This document shows positions 28,591-51,976 of a DNA stretch of 64,000 nucleotides, piece by piece. A model generated the notes under the pieces. It saw only the letters and a list, made by a program, of their open reading frames with translations, had not been told where the DNA came from and did not search any database. Origin of the DNA: Synechocystis sp. PCC 6714 (GTDB lineage Bacteria > Cyanobacteriota > Cyanobacteriia > Cyanobacteriales > Microcystaceae); assembly GCF_000478825.2 (NCBI RefSeq), contig NZ_CP007542.1, positions 744,001-808,000 of the forward strand, in the 5' to 3' direction. Each line of letters opens with the position of its first letter. Position 1 is the first letter of the stretch. The position numbers were made by a program, and so were the translations under genes.

Positions 28591-29619
28591 TTAGCCCAGC
28601 AGAGGCCTCCACCAGGCTTCATTGTCCAAATACCATTGCACTGTCTGCTTTAACCCCTGTTCCACGGTCACTTTGGGCTCCCAGCCTAATTCCTGTTTAA
28701 TTTTGCTGGCATCAATGGCATAACGGCGATCATGCCCTGGGCGATCGGTTACATAGGTGATTAATTTTTCGGCCGGCTGCACAGGCAAATGGGGCACTAA
28801 TTCATTCATTAATTGACATAAAAGTTTAACTAATTCAATATTTTTGACTTCATTATTGCCGCCAATGTTGTAGGTTTCCCCTGGTAAAGCTTGGTTCAAA
28901 ACCAAGTCCAGAGCTTGACAGTGATCTGTGACATAGAGCCAATCCCGTACGTTCTCGCCGTCGCCGTACACTGGTAAGTTTTTCCCCTGTAAAATATGCA
29001 GACACATCAGAGGAATTAACTTTTCAGGGAATTGATAGGGGCCGTAATTGTTGGAACAATTGGTAATTAAAGTAGGCAGACCATAGGTGTGAAAATAGGC
29101 CCGCACCAAATGATCACTGCCAGCTTTGGAAGCGGAATAGGGACTATTGGGGGCGTAGGAAGTTGTTTCTCGAAAACCCGGTTCATCGGGGGCTAAACTA
29201 CCGTAAACTTCATCGGTGGAAACATGGAGAAAACGAAACTGGGCTGGTCTTCCCTGCCTCTGCCAATGTTCTCGAAAAGCTTCTAATAGGGTGAAAGTGC
29301 CCACCACATTGGTTTGCACAAAGGTCCCAGGGCCAAGGATGGAACGATCAACATGGGATTCCGCCGCAAAATGGGCGATGGTTTCAATCTTTTCTTCCTT
29401 CAACAATTTATCCAACAAATGGCGATCGCCAATATCCCCCTGAACAAAACGGAAATTAGCTAATTTTTCCAAAGGGGCCAGGGTTGCTCGGTTACCAGCA
29501 TAGGTAAGGGCGTCTAAAACAACAATGGGGCGATGGTCATAGGCTTGAACGCAATGGTAAACAAAATTAGCACCAATAAAACCGGCCCCACCGGTAATCA
29601 GAACGGGAGTGTTGGCCAT
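28591..29619 (-). CDS. rfbB: dTDP-glucose 4,6-dehydratase
   Basis: A 342-residue extended SDR. It has the Rossmann loop GGAGFIGANF (about 9-18), HFAAESHVDRSI, HVSTDEVYGSL and the catalytic YSASKAGSDH. The conserved NCSNNYGPYQFPEKLIPLM identifies RmlB/RfbB rather than a generic epimerase. It makes dTDP-4-keto-6-deoxyglucose for rhamnose and other deoxysugars of surface glycans. It is transcribed with moxR and dnaB upstream on the same strand, 27 bases after moxR. Confidence 0.95.
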   Translation of the reverse strand: MANTPVLITGGAGFIGANFVYHCVQAYDHRPIVVLDALTYAGNRATLAPLEKLANFRFVQGDIGDRHLLDKLLKEEKIETIAHFAAESHVDRSILGPGTFVQTNVVGTFTLLEAFREHWQRQGRPAQFRFLHVSTDEVYGSLAPDEPGFRETTSYAPNSPYSASKAGSDHLVRAYFHTYGLPTLITNCSNNYGPYQFPEKLIPLMCLHILQGKNLPVYGDGENVRDWLYVTDHCQALDLVLNQALPGETYNIGGNNEVKNIELVKLLCQLMNELVPHLPVQPAEKLITYVTDRPGHDRRYAIDASKIKQELGWEPKVTVEQGLKQTVQWYLDNEAWWRPLLG

Positions 29620-29646
29620 AGGAAAGAACGATTAAAAACGCTTAAA

Positions 29647-30558
29647 TCAAATGGGGACGCTGTCCAAAAGTCTTTGCAAAATTGCCTTGGGATCTTTGCC
29701 GCTCGCAGGAATTAAACGGTGGGCCAAAACATGGGGAGCAACAAATTTCACATCATCATCAATGGCATAATCCCGTTCTTCCAAAAAGGCAAAAGCTTGG
29801 GTCGCCCGTTGCAGAGCTGTAGTACCCCGCGGACTAACCCCCAAAGTAACATCCTCATCAGTCCGGGATGCCCGCACCAATCGCAAAAGATACTGTTGCA
29901 AGTCTTCCGTCAATTTCACCTGCCGCACCGCTTTTTGTAATGCCTCCACTTCTTCCAGGGAAATGCAGGATTCCAAATCCCCCACGGCGATCGCCTCTGG
30001 ATTTTGTTGCCGCTGGAGCATTTTTAGTTCTTCTGCTTCCGAGGGGTAACCCAAACTCAGGGAAAGGGCAAAACGATCCAACTGGGCTTCCGGTAGGGGA
30101 AAAGTGCCCTGGTACTCAATGGGATTTTGTGTGGCAATGACAAAGAAGGGATGGGGCACCAATCGGGTCTCACCATCAACTGTTACCTGCCTTTCCTCCA
30201 TTACCTCCAACAAAGCGGCCTGGGTGCGGGGGGTAGCCCGGTTAATTTCATCGGCTAGCAGAATATTTGCAAACGCTGGGCCAGGCAAAAATTCAAACTC
30301 ACGACTACTGGGGTTCCAAATGTTAGTGCCAGTAATATCGGTCGGCAATAAATCGGGGGTGCACTGTACCCGTTGAAACTTGCCATTAATGGACCGGGCC
30401 AGGGACTTGGCCAGGAGGGTTTTGCCCACACCGGGTACATCTTCCAACAGAGCATGGCCCCCGCTCAGTAGGGCCACTAGCACCAAACGAATGGCCTCAT
30501 CCTTGCCCACAATGGTTTGACTAAGATTTTGGGTCAGGACGGAAATCTGTTCTCGCAT
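29647..30558 (-). CDS. MoxR-type AAA+ ATPase
   Basis: A 303-residue MoxR ATPase from the ATG at 30558. Walker A is GVGKTLLAKS. Walker B and the following segment are LLADEINRATPRTQAALLEV, then MEERQVTVDG. Sensor-1 is FFVIATQNP. MoxR proteins act as chaperones maturing partner complexes, usually with a vWA-domain protein encoded next door; no such partner is visible in this window. The position next to rfbB and dnaB matches 6803 slr0835. Confidence 0.92.
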   Translation of the reverse strand: MREQISVLTQNLSQTIVGKDEAIRLVLVALLSGGHALLEDVPGVGKTLLAKSLARSINGKFQRVQCTPDLLPTDITGTNIWNPSSREFEFLPGPAFANILLADEINRATPRTQAALLEVMEERQVTVDGETRLVPHPFFVIATQNPIEYQGTFPLPEAQLDRFALSLSLGYPSEAEELKMLQRQQNPEAIAVGDLESCISLEEVEALQKAVRQVKLTEDLQQYLLRLVRASRTDEDVTLGVSPRGTTALQRATQAFAFLEERDYAIDDDVKFVAPHVLAHRLIPASGKDPKAILQRLLDSVPI

Positions 30559-30753
30559 AGGGGAAGTATCGCGCCGAGGGCTAAGGTGGTTTGGATAACA
30601 AATCAACAGCTTTCACTGTACCTTACCCGATGTGCCCAAGGTAACTGTGTATTTGCAGAGTCCACTGGTTTAGTATTGACGGGCAAAAGGTTGAAAAAAT
30701 TCCTTGACAGTCAACTAAACAGCAACTTTATGGACAAAATTTACTTTTTTAAT

Positions 30754-33700
30754 CTAGTAGTCATTAGTTCGTTGTAGGTTTAAAAACTGGGTAAATTCCG
30801 GTTTAAAAAGCAATTTAACTACGCCCGTAGGTCCATTTCTATGTTTAACAATTAACAGTTCTGCTACCCCTGGATCCGGCGTGTCAGGATTATAATATTC
30901 ATCTCGATAAATCATCATAATCAAATCTGCATCTTGCTCAATGCTGTTATGAACGATGATGTCATTCGCAACAAAATTATGTAGACTTGGCACAGTTAAA
31001 TCAAAAACTTCTTCGATTCCAGCTTCGGTGACAGAGGTAATGGTATCCCAATAAATATCACTCTGAGACAATTTGTTTACCTCAGCTAATTCTATTTTAT
31101 TACTTGTATATTGAATTGCATGGCGAGGCAAAGTACAGCCATCACCAATCAAGTGCCCCAGTAGTCCCAGTTCCTCATCACTCATTAACTGTAAAGCATG
31201 ACTTTCTAGTTTACGGGGCAGGGCAATATACTCCTGTAAAGATAACTCATCTAATCTCTTCCAACCATCAATAGTTAAAAATTTATGATTTGCCGTTGCT
31301 TTAATAGTTCTACCTAGCCGAGTTTTCAAAATGTAAACCAGCTTTTTTCCAGTGCAAAATACACGACTAACTTTAGCTGATTCTAGTTTCATTGTCTGTT
31401 CATTAATTGCCCATACTTCAAAATCTTTTTGATCTACTAGATCTCTAATAGAGGCTCTTTTACTTGTAACTAAGTTAACTAAACTATCTCCACTAATACA
31501 ACCACTTTCTCTCAAATCTGACATCATTGGTCGCTTATTAGTTCTCGATTCCACCGCTCGACTCAGCTGAGATAACGCAATTACCGGCGCATTAATTTCC
31601 CTAGCTAAACCTTTGAGGGAACGGGTAATTTTTGATAACTCCTGCACCCGATTATCACTGCCGCCCTCCATTAGTTGTAAATAATCAATTAAAACCATGC
31701 CCAAGGGACCTTTTTGCTCACTTTGCAGACGTCGAACTTGGGAACGCATTTGGGTCACGGAAATACTTGCCGTATCATCAATGTAGATAGGCAAACTAGA
31801 AAGGGTGCCCATGGCTGCCGTTAAAGGCTCAAATTCTGCTTGGCTAAAATGCCCCGTCCGCAGACGATTACTATCAATTAAAGATTCACTGGCCAAAAGT
31901 CTTAATGCTAACTGTTCCTTAGACATTTCTAGGCTAAAAATAGCCACTGGCAAATTTTGATTTTTGGCAATATTTGCGGCAATTCCTAAGCCAAAAGCTG
32001 TATTATGCACACAGATATCATTGGCAATGAAGTTATGGGTTTCTGGCACTGTCAAATCATAGACTTGTTTTAAGCCAACGGATTCAATGGAAACAATTTC
32101 ATCCCAATAAATATCACTAGTCGCCAATTGCTGAAAGGGAACATTTGCCAAGGAGTTTGATAGCTTTAGTAAGCGAGCTCTTGTCAAAGCTCTTTTGCCT
32201 ACATGAAGATTACTGCAATTAATAATGCCGGAACGCTTAGCTAAAGAAGACCAAGATTCATTTTCTTTAGATAATTTTAATTGTTCCCAAAGCTCGATAG
32301 GAATAAGATCACAGTTAGTCTGATAGTTTCTATTGATTAGTAAAGATTGAATAGCGATAAGTTGCTCTTCCTTACCAAAAATGCCAATTTGCTCAATAAA
32401 ATTTTTAATTGAATAAGCATCAGTAATATCCAATTGCCAAGCATTTCTTAATTGATCATTATATTTAACTGCTTTTCTTTTGAGTTTTGCAATAATACTA
32501 AATCTCAAAAGAAGATGCTGAACTTGTCGAGCTAATTTTTCACTGACACTGCAATAACCTAGCTGAATTTGCTGACTTTTAAGAATGCTAGCCCAACCGT
32601 CCGTGGCAAACAAGCGATTTAGAAAGAGAGCCAGTAAAGATTTCTCCAATTGAAAAACTAGATCAGGAATAGTTTTGGTATGGGCGGTTTTACCATCTAC
32701 CCCCAGTTCTTCTAGCCAAATTTTTATACTACTAGCTCCATTTTTTATCAGTTCCGTTTCCTGGGCTTCTGGAGGCAACAATAGACTGGGCTCAACTCCT
32801 AAAGCCTGGCAAAGTAATTTGAACTTATTTTTCTCTGGAAAACAATAACCTTTTTTCCAATTATCAATGCTGGCAATGCTGACTTTTACTTTACTAGCTA
32901 ATTCTTTGGTTTTTAAAGATCTAGTTTTAATTATGTTATTAAGATTCTCACTAAAAATTTCTCTTTTCCGAGCGATTACTTTTACATTCTTAGAAATTCT
33001 TAAGGTCGGAGTGCGGGTGTTGTTAGAAGTTTCAACAGTAAGTTTAATACCTGGAAAATCCCTAGTTGCCTCCTCAAAATCTGCCCTAATTCTAGGGTTA
33101 ATATTAGTAAATCGAGGACAGGATCCGGTAACATCTCCATCACCAATCAAATATGCCAATAATTTGACCTTACCAGAATTTAAAATTTTGTTGCCAAAAC
33201 AAGGTATGTGACGGGGCACAGCAATTTTATCCCCTACTTTTAAATTGGCAAGGGTCTGCCAACCCATTATTGTGAGATAGGGATGGGTCAATGTAGTTTC
33301 CAGAGAACGCCCCAATCTTGTGGTGACACGAAAAACTGGTTTAATGCCATCGTCAATGAAGTCTGAAGGCTTGGTCCAATCGAGTTTCCAATCTTGGTTA
33401 AGGGTTAATAACTCTGCTTTCTTTTGCTTATAAATTTCGGCGATTGTACAAATACGTCCATTTGCTAAAACAATTTCTGCATTGGCCGCACAGCACTTAC
33501 CCATTGATGGCCGACCAGCCAAGATAATTAAATCTGCCCGCTGTAATCCCCCTGTCATCGCATCGAGGTCATAGAACTGAGTTTCTACCCCTGGACTGGA
33601 AAGTTTTTCGTGTAATTTATCTAGTTCAATGAAAGTGTTAACTAAGGTTTCCGATAGGGGGACTAGTCCTGCCTGGGGACGGGATTGGGTCAAGCGAAAG

Positions 33701-34134
33701 ATTTTCTGTTCCGATTCGTCAAAAATTACTTCTAATTCTTTGCTGGTTTCATAACCTAAATCAACGATGTCATACCCCGCTGCAATCAATTGGCGGCGCA
33801 AATATTTATCCATTACTAGGACAGCAAAACGGTCAATGTTCGCCGCTGAAATGGTGCGATCTAACAATTGGGTTAATTTGATCATGCCCCCGATCGCCTC
33901 GAAATGATGGTGATCTTGGAGCCAACTGCTGACGGACATCAAATCTGTGGGCTGACTTTGGCCATGGAGACTGAGCATGGCCTCATAGATCAAACGATGG
34001 GCTTTGACGTAAAAAGCGTCCACCACTAAGAGGTCAATGATGCGACCTATGGCCTCTGGATCGAGGAGAATACCCCCCAGGATGCACTCTTCAGCTTCAA
34101 TGTTTTGGGGCGGTAGGGCGGGGTTAGCAACCAT
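30754..34134 (-). CDS. dnaB: Replicative DNA helicase DnaB precursor with two inteins
   Basis: An 1126-residue precursor. Extein 1 (residues 1-213) contains the DnaB N-terminal helical domain and ends in GRPSMGK. Intein 1 (498 residues) interrupts the P-loop. Extein 2 starts TAFGLGIAAN and includes the DnaB core VALRLL-type helix, LIDYLQLM (Walker B) and the SDLRESG segment. Intein 2 (185 residues) follows. Extein 3 starts SIEQDADLIMMIYRDEYY and ends near RTNDY. Removing both inteins restores GRPSMGKTAFGLG and RESGSIEQDADL and gives a 443-residue helicase, the same size as spliced 6803 DnaB (872 minus 429). It unwinds DNA at the replication fork as a hexamer. Confidence 0.96.
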   Translation of the reverse strand: MVANPALPPQNIEAEECILGGILLDPEAIGRIIDLLVVDAFYVKAHRLIYEAMLSLHGQSQPTDLMSVSSWLQDHHHFEAIGGMIKLTQLLDRTISAANIDRFAVLVMDKYLRRQLIAAGYDIVDLGYETSKELEVIFDESEQKIFRLTQSRPQAGLVPLSETLVNTFIELDKLHEKLSSPGVETQFYDLDAMTGGLQRADLIILAGRPSMGKCCAANAEIVLANGRICTIAEIYKQKKAELLTLNQDWKLDWTKPSDFIDDGIKPVFRVTTRLGRSLETTLTHPYLTIMGWQTLANLKVGDKIAVPRHIPCFGNKILNSGKVKLLAYLIGDGDVTGSCPRFTNINPRIRADFEEATRDFPGIKLTVETSNNTRTPTLRISKNVKVIARKREIFSENLNNIIKTRSLKTKELASKVKVSIASIDNWKKGYCFPEKNKFKLLCQALGVEPSLLLPPEAQETELIKNGASSIKIWLEELGVDGKTAHTKTIPDLVFQLEKSLLALFLNRLFATDGWASILKSQQIQLGYCSVSEKLARQVQHLLLRFSIIAKLKRKAVKYNDQLRNAWQLDITDAYSIKNFIEQIGIFGKEEQLIAIQSLLINRNYQTNCDLIPIELWEQLKLSKENESWSSLAKRSGIINCSNLHVGKRALTRARLLKLSNSLANVPFQQLATSDIYWDEIVSIESVGLKQVYDLTVPETHNFIANDICVHNTAFGLGIAANIAKNQNLPVAIFSLEMSKEQLALRLLASESLIDSNRLRTGHFSQAEFEPLTAAMGTLSSLPIYIDDTASISVTQMRSQVRRLQSEQKGPLGMVLIDYLQLMEGGSDNRVQELSKITRSLKGLAREINAPVIALSQLSRAVESRTNKRPMMSDLRESGCISGDSLVNLVTSKRASIRDLVDQKDFEVWAINEQTMKLESAKVSRVFCTGKKLVYILKTRLGRTIKATANHKFLTIDGWKRLDELSLQEYIALPRKLESHALQLMSDEELGLLGHLIGDGCTLPRHAIQYTSNKIELAEVNKLSQSDIYWDTITSVTEAGIEEVFDLTVPSLHNFVANDIIVHNSIEQDADLIMMIYRDEYYNPDTPDPGVAELLIVKHRNGPTGVVKLLFKPEFTQFLNLQRTNDY
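30946..31500 (-). other. DnaB intein 2, natural mini-intein with endonuclease remnant
   Basis: 185 residues inserted after RESG and before SIEQDAD, the site of the well-known Synechocystis 6803 DnaB intein. Ends are CISGDSLVNL and NFVANDIIVHN, with +1 Ser. Block B is TIKATANHKF. Where the 6803 intein (429 residues) has a full endonuclease, this copy keeps only about 30 residues around the first LAGLIDADG motif (LGLLGHLIGDG, 111-121) and joins directly to the C-terminal splicing domain (LSQSDIYWD). It should be splicing-competent but unable to home. Confidence 0.93.
32002..33495 (-). other. DnaB intein 1 (P-loop site), full-length with homing endonuclease
   Basis: 498 residues inserted between Lys and Thr of the Walker A motif. 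Splicing residues are present: Cys1 (CCAANAEIVLANG), block B TLTHPYLT (69-76), C-terminal block F/G ending NFIANDICVHN, and +1 Thr in the extein. The endonuclease has two LAGLIDADG-type motifs: LLAYLIGDG (112-120) and LFATDGWAS-type (295-303). Between them is a helix-turn-helix resembling phage repressors (SLKTKELASKVKVSIASIDN, 193-212). The DNA is visibly more AT-rich than the flanking extein. It probably still splices and homes; both are predictions. Confidence 0.93.
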
Positions 34135-45746: not shown

Positions 45747-47465
45747 ATGACCCCATTGGAATTGAGTTACCCCTTAATTGGATTGGTTTTGGCCCTAGGC
45801 AGTGGCATATATGTCTGGAATAGTCGTCGTGCCCTAGAAAAAAAACTCGCCCAATCCCAACCCTCCGAGGAGTCATTAACTTCAATCCCTGCTCCTCAAA
45901 CTCCGGCGATCGCCAAGGAAGTTGTCCCCAACGATGGTGGGGAGTCACCGGAGGAAATTATCCATGCCAAGGGGAAATTACGCCGCTTGGAGAAAGAATT
46001 GCAATCCCTCCAGAGCAGTTTAGAGAAAGCTTTGGCTGAGCGGGATCAATTGACAGAAAACTACCAAGCCCAGGAAAAAATGGTGGCCGCCCTGCAACAT
46101 CAGTTGGCCCACTATGACGACATCCAAAGCGAAAAATTTGTCGGCTTGCAAAAGCTCAATCAAGAATTGCTCCAGGAAAATACCAACTTGTCCGATCGCC
46201 TCAAACAGGCGGTGAATGAAGTGGCGGAAACCCGGCCCAAGTTAGTTCATTTGAATTCATTGATTGCCCGTAATCAACAGTTGAGTGACCAACTCGGCTA
46301 CGTAGAACAAAATCAAGCCAAGGCGATCGACCAACGTTTGGCTTCCCAGGAAAAACTCTGGCAACAACAACGCCGGGAAGAGCAGGAAAGCTTGAAGAAT
46401 CAGCTTGTCCAAGCAGAGCAAAAGGTACAAACATTAACCACGGAGCGGGATCAAGCCCAGCAAGAATCACACACTTTAAAAGAAAAAACCCAGTCAGTCC
46501 AGGCAGAGGTGACAAATTTACAAACCGCCCTCGATCGCCTAGTGCAACAGGAAGAACAGTGGCAAGGGGAACGGGAGCAACTCACCGCTAAACTAAACCA
46601 ACTGGAGGAAGCGCAAAAAGAATTGGCCCTAGCCAACGCCGAATTAAAACTGAAGCTGGAAACAACCCAGGCCGAAGGCGATCGCCTCAAAGCGGAAAAA
46701 AAAGAACAGTCCACAGCCCTACAATCCGCTGAGGAAGAAGTAACTCAACTGCAAAAGGAATTGGCGGCCCTACAGGAAACCCTAGCTAAGGCTAAAACCG
46801 CTTCTCCCTCTGAAGTTCCAACTAAACTTAAAGCCGTTGAAACTAAGCCGCCGCAGGAAACCCCCCCCGTGTCTGCTGCCCCCGCCCCGGCGACCGTTGA
46901 AGCTCAACCGGAATCGCCCAAATCTGCTACCGCAGAAAAAGTTGAACCGGAATCAGCCCCAGTCGAACCAGTTGCCCAGGCCGCCAAAGCACCTGCATCT
47001 CCAGCGAAAAAATCTCCCCCTAAGGCTGTTGCGCCTGTTGATGTTGCACCCGTTCCAGATGAGACAAAACAGAAAGTTCAAGGGGGGGAGCAAACCGAGC
47101 CGTCTGAGGAAATTAAAAATGTTGTCCCAGTGGCATCTAGCGAACCCGTTACCTCCAAGGTAGAAAGGGCAGAAATAGCCGCTGACGCTGTCACCAAGTC
47201 GGTAGCAACCACCCCCAGTGAGCAGGAGGGCGTCCATCCCCTAGCGGAGAAAAAAATCGTTATCCTTGGCACCCTCAACGCCATGAACCGGGAAGAGGCC
47301 AAAACTAGGCTCCAGAACATCGGCGCAGAATGTACCAGTGCCCCCAGCAGTAAAACCGATTACATTGTGGTGGGTAAAGCTCCAGGGGCAAAACTGAAAA
47401 AAGCTCAGAAGCTTGGCATTGCCCAATTGTCAGAAGCACAATTCTTGGAATTGTTGGGCGACTAG
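45747..47465 (+). CDS. Membrane-anchored coiled-coil protein with C-terminal BRCT domain
   Basis: 572 residues in four parts. A membrane helix lies at about 5-25 (YPLIGLVLALGSGIYVW). A long Glu/Gln/Lys coiled coil spans about 65-350. A Pro/Ala/Glu-rich, low-complexity linker covers about 350-495. The C-terminal domain (LAEKKIVILGTLNAMNREEA, then RLQNIGAECTSAPSSKTDYI, then GAKLKKAQKLGIAQLSE) is the BRCT fold as in NAD-dependent DNA ligase. BRCT domains bind DNA ends or phosphoproteins; here it would be tethered to a membrane. It follows the nuclease-helicase gene on the same strand (144 bases). Confidence 0.85.
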   Translation: MTPLELSYPLIGLVLALGSGIYVWNSRRALEKKLAQSQPSEESLTSIPAPQTPAIAKEVVPNDGGESPEEIIHAKGKLRRLEKELQSLQSSLEKALAERDQLTENYQAQEKMVAALQHQLAHYDDIQSEKFVGLQKLNQELLQENTNLSDRLKQAVNEVAETRPKLVHLNSLIARNQQLSDQLGYVEQNQAKAIDQRLASQEKLWQQQRREEQESLKNQLVQAEQKVQTLTTERDQAQQESHTLKEKTQSVQAEVTNLQTALDRLVQQEEQWQGEREQLTAKLNQLEEAQKELALANAELKLKLETTQAEGDRLKAEKKEQSTALQSAEEEVTQLQKELAALQETLAKAKTASPSEVPTKLKAVETKPPQETPPVSAAPAPATVEAQPESPKSATAEKVEPESAPVEPVAQAAKAPASPAKKSPPKAVAPVDVAPVPDETKQKVQGGEQTEPSEEIKNVVPVASSEPVTSKVERAEIAADAVTKSVATTPSEQEGVHPLAEKKIVILGTLNAMNREEAKTRLQNIGAECTSAPSSKTDYIVVGKAPGAKLKKAQKLGIAQLSEAQFLELLGD

Positions 47466-50347: not shown

Positions 50348-50986
50348 ATGGCTTTAGATTTTTCGGCCCATCCCGGAGTGGCTCTCTCGGCGATCGCCTA
50401 TCCTGACCGAGTAGTTGCATCGCCGGAATCTAGTCATTTGTTGGTCATGCTCCACGGTTGGGGGGCCGATGCCAGGGATTTGCTAGATTTAGCCCCTTTA
50501 TTGGATTTACCTAATCATCAATGGCGGTTTGTTAATGCGCCTTTCGCCCATCCCCAAATTTCCGGAGGGCGGGCTTGGTACGATCTAGAAAGTCAGAATT
50601 TCGGAGGATTACCCCAAGCACGACAGGCTTTACGGCATTATTTATTAAATTTGGCAGAGGAAACGGGCATTCCTTTGGCCAGGACCATATTAGGCGGTTT
50701 TTCCCAGGGGGGAGCCATGGCCCTGGATGTGGGTCTCACATTGCCCCTGGCTAAGATTTTTTCCCTCAGTGGTTACCTCCATTTTCAGCCGGAATCTCAA
50801 CCCCAGGCGATCGCCCCTATTTTGTTGATCCATGGCACGGAAGACCCGGTAGTCCCAGTGCAAATGGCCCAGCAAGCCAAGGTTGAACTAGAACGCATTG
50901 GGGCCTCCGTGGAATACCATGAGTTCCCTATGGGCCATGCCATTCCTCCCATGGCGTTGGCTCGGTTGAGGTCTTTTTTAAGTTGA
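50348..50986 (+). CDS. Carboxylesterase/phospholipase (alpha/beta hydrolase, COG0400-like)
   Basis: A 212-residue serine esterase. The oxyanion motif is MLHGWGADARDL. The nucleophile Ser119 sits in LGGFSQGGAMAL, the acid in HGTEDPVVP and the His in MGHAIPP. Family members hydrolyse short acyl esters or lysophospholipids. It lies between the SpoIID-like gene and cofG on the same strand with gaps of 12 and 3 bases, a tight three-gene unit. Confidence 0.9.
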   Translation: MALDFSAHPGVALSAIAYPDRVVASPESSHLLVMLHGWGADARDLLDLAPLLDLPNHQWRFVNAPFAHPQISGGRAWYDLESQNFGGLPQARQALRHYLLNLAEETGIPLARTILGGFSQGGAMALDVGLTLPLAKIFSLSGYLHFQPESQPQAIAPILLIHGTEDPVVPVQMAQQAKVELERIGASVEYHEFPMGHAIPPMALARLRSFLS

Positions 50987-50989
50987 AGC

Positions 50990-51976
50990 GTGTTGCCTAT
51001 CACCTACAGTCCCGCTTATACCCTGGTTCCCACCTACGAATGCTTTAATCGTTGTAGTTACTGTAATTTTCGCCAGGATCCAGGGCAGGATAAATGGTTA
51101 ACGGAAAGTGTTGCTAAACAGCGATTGGAAGGTTTGGCAGAGCAGGGGGTAAGGGAGATTTTAATTCTGGCCGGAGAAGTGCATCCCCAATCATCCCTTA
51201 GAAAAGCTTGGTTTGAACTTCTTTACAATCTGGCTAAAATCGCTCTTGATTTGGGCTTTTATCCCCACACCAATGCGGGACCCTTAAATCGGCAAGAAAT
51301 GGCTAGTTTAAAGGAAGTGAATTTTTCCCTGGGATTAATGCTGGAACAGGTATCTCCCCGGTTATTCACCACGGTTCATCGCCATGCCCCCAGCAAAGAG
51401 CCCCAACTCAGGCTAAAACAGTTACAGCTAGCAGGGGAATTGGCCATTCCTTTCACCACTGGCTTGCTATTGGGCATTGGGGAAACTGATCAGGAGGTGG
51501 AAGATAGCTTAATGGCGATCGCCAACATCCAGCAACAATACGGTCATATTCAGGAAGTAATTTTGCAACCCCACAGCCCCGGGAAAAAACAAACGGATGA
51601 CATTCCAATCTATAGCCCTCAAAAACTGGTGCAAGTTGTTGCCCTAGCGAAGGAAATATTACCCCAAGGCATTACCTTACAAATACCGCCTAATTTAGTG
51701 GGCAATTTTTCTGATTTACTAGCATGTTTAGCTGCCGGTGTGAGAGACTTGGGGGGCATTGTTCCCATCGATGAAGTAAATCCAAATTATCATCACCAAT
51801 CGGTCAATCAACTGAGTCAATTGCTAGAAGAAAATGGTTATTTACTACAACCGAGGCTTCCCGTCTATCCAACCTATTTTACTTGGCTAATTCCCCCTTT
51901 ACAGGATCGTTTGGCCGATTATACAATGGGTAATTTATTAAGTTACCCCATTGGTGGAATCCCGGAGTTTAGTTAG
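50990..51976 (+). CDS. cofG: FO synthase subunit CofG (radical SAM)
   Basis: A 328-residue radical SAM enzyme with the cluster motif C-x3-C-x2-C (Cys18, 22, 25 in ECFNRCSYCNF). LTESVAKQRLEGLAEQGVRE, AGEVHPQSS and GLLLGIGETDQEVEDSL are CofG features. With CofH it makes the 7,8-didemethyl-8-hydroxy-5-deazariboflavin (FO) chromophore used by deazaflavin photolyases in cyanobacteria. cofH is not in the window. The start is GTG at 50990, three bases after the esterase stop. Confidence 0.9.
   Translation: MLPITYSPAYTLVPTYECFNRCSYCNFRQDPGQDKWLTESVAKQRLEGLAEQGVREILILAGEVHPQSSLRKAWFELLYNLAKIALDLGFYPHTNAGPLNRQEMASLKEVNFSLGLMLEQVSPRLFTTVHRHAPSKEPQLRLKQLQLAGELAIPFTTGLLLGIGETDQEVEDSLMAIANIQQQYGHIQEVILQPHSPGKKQTDDIPIYSPQKLVQVVALAKEILPQGITLQIPPNLVGNFSDLLACLAAGVRDLGGIVPIDEVNPNYHHQSVNQLSQLLEENGYLLQPRLPVYPTYFTWLIPPLQDRLADYTMGNLLSYPIGGIPEFS

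Follow-up and report, generated by a model that had tools for sequence, protein, structure and literature searches.

A P-loop intein and its endonuclease-less H4 neighbour may have entered the dnaB gene of a Synechocystis lineage together in one 3-kb tract

Among the closest described counterparts of the locus studied here are replicative helicases that carry inteins in pairs. The DnaB helicase of M. smegmatis has an intein, DnaBi1, in its P-loop (site b) and a partner intein in motif H4, and the available part of PMC6195587 describes DnaBi1 as a class 3 intein (WCT triplet, DxxH, Ala1) that is endonuclease-less and has a catalytic +1 Ser. Class 3 inteins are characterized there by a non-nucleophile at position 1 and DxxH in block B, and loss of ATPase function in the presence of a P-loop intein is treated as a reasonable assumption. 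For haloarchaea, the accessible text of PMC10643990 (2023) reports that two inteins home inefficiently into alleles that lack both, with the two-break problem as the probable cause; that co-homing is without support in these organisms, though a model with co-homing could not be significantly rejected; and that co-homing is the route on which a mini-intein beside a full intein must rely 'if it homes at all'. A mini-intein without its own endonuclease cannot spread by its own means, and a natural case of co-homing was not seen in our literature search, which covered few subscription papers.

Here we describe a dnaB gene in which both the P-loop and the H4 site are occupied. The window, i.e. the whole stretch of DNA that was analysed, comprises 64,000 nucleotides of Synechocystis sp. 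PCC 6714 (G000), and contains the following features:

30754..34134, minus strand: dnaB, replicative helicase, 1126-aa precursor with TIGR00665 DnaB and Pfam DnaB_C matches
32002..33495, minus strand: P-loop (Walker A, GK|T) intein with putative LAGLIDADG endonuclease, 498 aa, class-1 motifs
31501..32001, minus strand: extein segment separating both inteins, 167 aa, 501 bp
30946..31500, minus strand: H4-site mini-intein, 185 aa, flanked by RESG and SIEQD

The initial annotation had reported an intein inside the Walker A motif, and this was borne out to the residue: ILAGRPSMGK precedes the intein and TAFGLG follows it, so that the insertion lies between GK and S/T of Walker A (GRPSMGK|T), as is characteristic of the DnaB P-loop (site b). 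The length of 443 residues that it gave for DnaB without inteins likewise matches the computed length of the joined exteins. Judging from the insertion site, it may fairly be inferred that the unspliced precursor would be unable to bind ATP. Three things had been overlooked: the loss of the endonuclease from the H4 mini-intein, a helix-turn-helix (HTH) module in the P-loop intein, and the tract that joins the two inteins.

By the definition used here, part of which is general knowledge, a class 1 intein has Cys or Ser at position 1, TxxH in block B, a terminal His-Asn and a Cys, Ser or Thr at position +1. For another part, this definition is drawn from what is available of PMC6195587. The P-loop intein has C1, T68-x-x-H71, the Asp of the F block, H497-N498 and a +1 Thr, which extends the earlier remark on its splicing termini to a full motif set, and class 3 features were looked for and not found in it, since Cys1 and TxxH are present. 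By its motifs, the P-loop intein is thus of class 1 and is predicted to splice; class-1 signatures are found in the sequence of the H4 intein as well. The Pfam check that had been proposed gave matches to Intein_splicing (E 1.3e-25) and LAGLIDADG_3 (E 1.3e-17), and intein_Nterm and intein_Cterm of NCBIfam both match. The splicing domain is detected by Pfam in both dnaB inteins, and the LAGLIDADG domain and HTH_19 in the P-loop intein only. The two LAGLIDADG motifs noticed previously are present (LAYLIGDGD and LNRLFATDG), with the catalytic residues Asp119 and Asp299 retained; sequence together with AlphaFold2 and Foldseek gives two helices with catalytic acids in a two-repeat fold, as in LAGLIDADG homing endonucleases, and the predicted endonuclease is therefore apparently intact. 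The AlphaFold2 model (mean pLDDT 93.9, pTM 0.91) was made from a 54-sequence alignment of the window intein and 53 of the best 80 loci in named genomes, and the splicing part of the intein matches Ssp DnaB inteins in Foldseek. A cysteine three residues ahead of the terminal Asn, C495 (codon 32011-32013), is invariant in the same alignment and missing from the H4 inteins compared, and may be a candidate redox or structural residue.

An additional module lies inside the first LAGLIDADG repeat:

32761..32970, minus strand: Cro/C1-like HTH module, intein residues 176-245

The HTH_19 match (E 1.5e-6) scores 28.5 bits, which is below the curated cut-off of 30.2, and the module also resembles the LexA-annotated HTH 2kpj (E 2.3e-4). 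In the model, the HTH helices (171-239) come after a strand (164-169) and before helices 246-249 and 256-264. The P-loop intein of genome G388 (389 aa, locus L236) is without an HTH, keeps both catalytic acids and is 84% identical to the HTH-bearing intein of G399, so that the module has apparently been lost or gained between the two; as judged from such sequences, the HTH comes and goes among the P-loop inteins of the family. It is also the least constrained part of the intein, with an omega of 0.05-0.79 versus 0.07-0.30 for the endonuclease in the 11 pairs of genomes taken as free-living, a set chosen by us. The module may serve target binding, and a literature search for HTH modules in LAGLIDADG inteins returned nothing beyond WhiA.

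The second intein, of 185 aa, has a splicing domain and no endonuclease apart from a stub of the first motif (GLLGHLIGDGCTLPRHAIQYT); Intein_splicing is its sole Pfam match at E <= 0.1, and phmmer places it close to the Ssp DnaB intein 1mi8 (E 7.2e-72). Full-length homologues of 429-430 aa occupy the same site in G004, G425 and G345. By its sequence, the H4 intein is a natural mini-intein without an endonuclease. We considered whether H4 mini-inteins are favoured in double-intein genes, which was not supported by counts in a non-random set of 59 genomes with dnaB read (39 with open frames over 560 aa and 20 family genomes; the P-loop genomes at L010-L036 are left out of these counts). When the P-loop intein is present, the H4 site holds a mini-intein in 6 genomes, a full intein in 7, is empty in 18 and could not be resolved in 2; the corresponding numbers for genomes without it are 8, 9, 3 and 6. 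This lack of enrichment of H4 mini-inteins beside the P-loop intein speaks against the explanation that we favour below. The P-loop intein is carried by 33 of these 59 genomes, never with fewer than 300 aa, and both catalytic acids are retained in 26 of the 33, the other seven including two (G112 and G327) that could not be aligned at these residues.

The initial annotation had held that the P-loop intein distinguishes this strain, and this view has to be given up: with 96% identity, the intein is also present in G003, one of four further genomes compared from the genus, and it is widespread in cyanobacteria. The assignment of this genus to Synechocystis agrees with the closeness of the H4 intein to 1mi8. 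A match spanning intein residues 1 (or 2) to 498 was found in 41 of the 388 genomes of the class, and 161 of them match the intein query at E <= 0.001, a count that includes H4 inteins through their common splicing domain. At least 80 loci were found in named genomes, and GK|T is readable on both sides of the intein in 78 of the best 80, the remaining two being readable on one side only (L098, with a misparsed far border, and L114, with the near border cut off). Outside the cyanobacteria, these 80 include loci of Rubrobacter marinus and Desulfonema magnum, whose titles indicate complete chromosomes, and of Phycisphaerales and Arenimonas; a number of further hosts are metagenome bins, in which contamination is possible. 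In viral contigs (best 80 of 101 relatives listed), the best near-full-length intein matches are 34-36% identical. The intein tree that had been suggested, built by a quick method from 47 rows with L091 left out, groups the window intein with that of G003 and then with those of G425 and G345, all of its own family. Judged by sequence, the window intein is a member of a widely distributed family of DnaB P-loop inteins whose endonuclease carries an HTH. The earlier argument that its AT-rich composition supports transfer fails too. The G+C content of the P-loop intein is indeed 36.5% versus 44.2% for the dnaB extein, but the intein is more AT-rich than the host gene in 12 of 12 carriers among the 20 family genomes with dnaB read, including two named endosymbiont genomes in which intein and extein have diverged alike, and AT-richness is therefore no sign of recent transfer here.

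Within the genus, G000 and G003 have both inteins with an identical mini-intein deletion, and the P-loop intein is missing from G001, G002 and G004. Both sites are empty in G001, whose DnaB extein protein is 97.5% identical to that of G000 and 99.1% identical to that of G003. G004 has a single, full-length intein at H4, by eye dissimilar to the H4 intein of 6803 (1mi8). The dnaB of G002 (L229, a 587-aa frame) has a small intein whose insertion point, RE|SG, is displaced upstream from the H4 site by two residues; by eye this intein is dissimilar to other H4 inteins, and RE|SG is possibly another insertion site in DnaB. The idea of a recent acquisition, which the initial annotation had raised, is backed by a tract common to G000 and G003 that a two-state model, whose parameters we chose, delimits as follows:

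30810..33882, minus strand: donor-like tract common to G000 and G003, 3,073 bp

The tract lies inside dnaB and contains both inteins and the intervening extein. Its upstream edge is sharp (between 33901 and 33882, 387-406 bp before the insertion point), its pattern is patchy just beyond the mini-intein, between 30944 and about 30799, and its extein-only length is 1,024 bp, of which the last 136 bp are patchy. In 150-bp windows of the tract, the identity of G000 and G003 is 95-99% (about 97% overall). Outside the dnaB block their mean identity is 84.1% (578 windows); 40 of the 578 reach at least 95%, and the longest run of such windows is five (750 bp, at L290, compared there between G000 and G003 alone). 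Informative sites change accordingly: the donor-like and sister-like ones number 107 and 12 in the tract, 10 and 86 just upstream of it, and 10 and 59 just downstream. Between G000 and G003, the P-loop intein has a dS of 0.068, the intervening extein one of 0.092 and the mini-intein one of 0.102, compared with 0.26 and 0.68 for the whole N-extein and the whole C-extein, respectively. Because the identity of the tract and the low dS cover all three segments, both inteins would have moved along with the intervening extein, and the deletion in the mini-intein, being common to G000 and G003, would be older than the transfer.

It could be argued that both inteins were inherited vertically in the genus and then lost precisely from G001. 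Their presence in both G000 and G003, and the fact that the nearest other P-loop inteins (G425/G345) belong to the same family, would fit such a history. It gives, however, no account of a bounded tract of about 97% identity between genomes that average 84%, and the precise loss of two inteins would itself require recombination. Vertical inheritance is thus contradicted for G000 and G003, loss in G001 being possible as an extra event, and we consider this explanation very improbable.

The direction of the transfer can be approached through G001. Outside the dnaB block, G001 is 82.2% identical to G000 (334 windows) and 90.3% identical to G003 (248 windows). Upstream of the tract (34600-34001) G003 is 95-97% identical to G001 and 79-90% to G000, and downstream (30850-30101) 87-99% and 81-92%, respectively. 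Inside the tract, G003 is 84-95% identical to G001 in the extein windows up to the end of the mini-intein, the identity of G000 to G001 stays at its ordinary level (85-94% in the extein windows), and the extein between the inteins is 97-99% identical to that of G003 and about 90% to that of G001. Because G003 departs from G001 inside the tract and G000 does not, the G003 lineage is the likely recipient, and since G001 is doubly empty and, outside the tract, has G003 as the nearer of its two relatives, we read the tract as a conversion of the G003 lineage. Polarised with G004, G425 and G345, outgroups so distant that most sites are unusable, the N-extein part has seven sites shared-derived in G000 and G003 and none in G003 and G001; the middle extein part has none of either kind and four derived in G001 alone; and after the mini-intein there are two of each. 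The direction and the state of the recipient are therefore moderately, not strongly, backed, and a doubly empty recipient allele is the parsimonious reading, not a proven one. It should be noted that the identity between G003 and G001 is itself uneven around its mean, which counts against our preferred explanation. An overlapping variant of this explanation assumes an H4 intein already in the recipient and has it overwritten in the course of P-loop intein homing, so that the invaded allele was not doubly empty. The Haloferax experiments in the available part of PMC10643990 favour two-intein donors that invade singly occupied alleles, which agrees with such a course; G001, the nearest compared relative of G003, is nevertheless empty at both sites, and we regard the variant as quite unlikely.

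Ordinary homologous recombination through natural transformation could also have transferred both inteins, with the endonuclease uninvolved. Ordinary exchange does link these lineages, and this weighs against our preferred explanation, as does the 750-bp run at L290. A donor-like tract of 505 bp at 29326-29830 (78 donor-like and 5 sister-like sites), about 1 kb downstream of dnaB, extends across the boundary between ORFs 29647-30606 and 28591-29619 (by eye a MoxR-like ATPase and a dTDP-glucose dehydratase), and is near enough to belong to the same incoming DNA. Others are found at 46301-46650 (350 bp, 79 versus 4 sites, with G003 97-99% identical to G000 and G001 far off) and at 50804-51169 (366 bp). 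The 505-bp tract and the other short ones therefore point to general recombination between the lineages. In 38,368 three-way bases elsewhere, 36 donor-like tracts were called, the longest of 1,461 bp (L290) and the next of 366 bp; the one at L290 was inspected individually and the other 35 were taken as called by the two-state model. As a competitor of the dnaB tract, the L290 call was rejected because it is paralogue-like, with G001 matching there at 67-69%. With this call set aside, the other donor-like tracts have at most 505 bp comparable in all three genomes, and the dnaB tract, with its 3,073 bp, is the longest in the three-way comparison. This, and the movement of the P-loop intein in other pairs of genomes with little or no flanking extein, speaks against ordinary recombination as the sole cause, which we hold to be unlikely.

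Movement of the P-loop intein alone was sought in 238 pairs with an intein DNA identity of at least 72%, drawn from 89 records in which some genomes appear twice under two handles. In five of the pairs the identity of the intein exceeds that of the extein by at least 8 points. In G425/G345, the P-loop intein is 93% and the extein 81% identical; by windows, the intein is at 90-97%, the distant extein at 71-82% and the H4 inteins mostly at 52-65%, and high identity extends about 45-90 bp into the extein. The other four pairs join Trichormus (L041) with four Anabaena/Dolichospermum genomes (intein 92-93%, extein 82-84%), and no flanking tract around the L041 intein is visible. By these sequence comparisons, both cases look like the P-loop intein moving alone, and these two further transfers back active homing.

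Judged by substitution rates, the endonuclease of the P-loop intein is under purifying selection. Its omega was given above for the free-living pairs, and is 0.40-0.86 in four endosymbiont-type pairs, in which the omega of the splicing domain is 0.10-0.23; for G000/G003, selection on the endonuclease is estimated from 12 synonymous and 13 replacement changes. The endosymbiont-type set consists of G384 (L100, Rhopalodia gibberula) and G354 (L104, Epithemia turgida), both named by way of identical loci, with G423 and G424 included by assumption on the grounds of relationship and genome size, and a catalytic Asp is lost in three of these four genomes (L237-L240: G424, G423, G384 and G354), with the splicing motifs kept. 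The dS of intein (0.28-0.29) and extein (0.23) are alike in the named endosymbiont pair, as vertical descent predicts, but in the three pairs that involve G423 or G424 that of the intein (0.16-0.54, splicing and endonuclease parts) is mostly below that of the extein (0.29-0.61), which makes the endosymbiont contrast imperfect. The difference in omega therefore suggests that the endonuclease is maintained where transfer is possible and decays where it is not; G405 and G406, which are outside the endosymbiont-type group and have each lost one catalytic Asp, run counter to this view.

Taken together, we consider it likely that endonuclease-driven homing of the P-loop intein co-converted the H4 mini-intein in one event. 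A class-1 intein with a putative HTH-augmented LAGLIDADG endonuclease would sit at GK|T of DnaB, and its removal by splicing would rebuild the Walker A loop. The endonuclease would cut an intein-less dnaB near GK|T, a site at which G000 and G001 agree in protein and for the most part in DNA sequence, and repair would copy the intein and flanking DNA from a donor fragment. Synechocystis is naturally transformable, and natural competence could have supplied the donor DNA. In one event between a relative of G000 and the G003 lineage, the repair tract would have run on through the 501-bp extein and taken in the downstream H4 mini-intein, carried as a passenger (co-homing). Splicing, cleavage, the cause of the tract and the doubly empty recipient are what we infer from comparison. 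The fuller claim, i.e. a natural case of intein co-homing in which the P-loop endonuclease mobilised the mini-intein into a doubly empty dnaB within one 3-kb tract, seems to us somewhat on the probable side. A single cut may sidestep the two-break problem of double homing, and related genomes offer dnaB alleles with both inteins, one with neither, and a common tract with definite ends, which makes co-homing testable by strain crosses.

With respect to known systems, the TliVMA (7qss) and PI-PfuI (1dq3) inteins combine a splicing domain with LAGLIDADG, as the P-loop intein does (Foldseek TMq 0.63 and 0.54, respectively), at 15% identity each. The DnaB intein of PCC 6803 has 429 aa and an endonuclease. 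This Ssp intein (1mi8) is a close relative of the H4 intein described here, which is a natural form with a motif stub, and whose natural loss of the endonuclease resembles the engineered Ssp DnaB mini-intein. The P-loop position is the same as in M. smegmatis DnaBi1 and M. leprae DnaB; according to the available part of PMC6195587, however, DnaBi1 is of class 3, whereas the intein here has class-1 motifs (Cys1, TxxH, +1 Thr) with a predicted endonuclease and an HTH, and in M. smegmatis it is the H4 intein that carries the endonuclease, so that the division of labour is reversed. The haloarchaeal MCM-a and MCM-d inteins are also neighbours in a replicative helicase with frequent transfer, but in the accessible text of PMC10643990 both of their endonucleases are working, while here one intein is without an endonuclease and the pair lies in one tract. 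Since the P-loop intein family itself is widespread, what would set this locus apart is that a neighbour without an endonuclease moved together with the P-loop intein.
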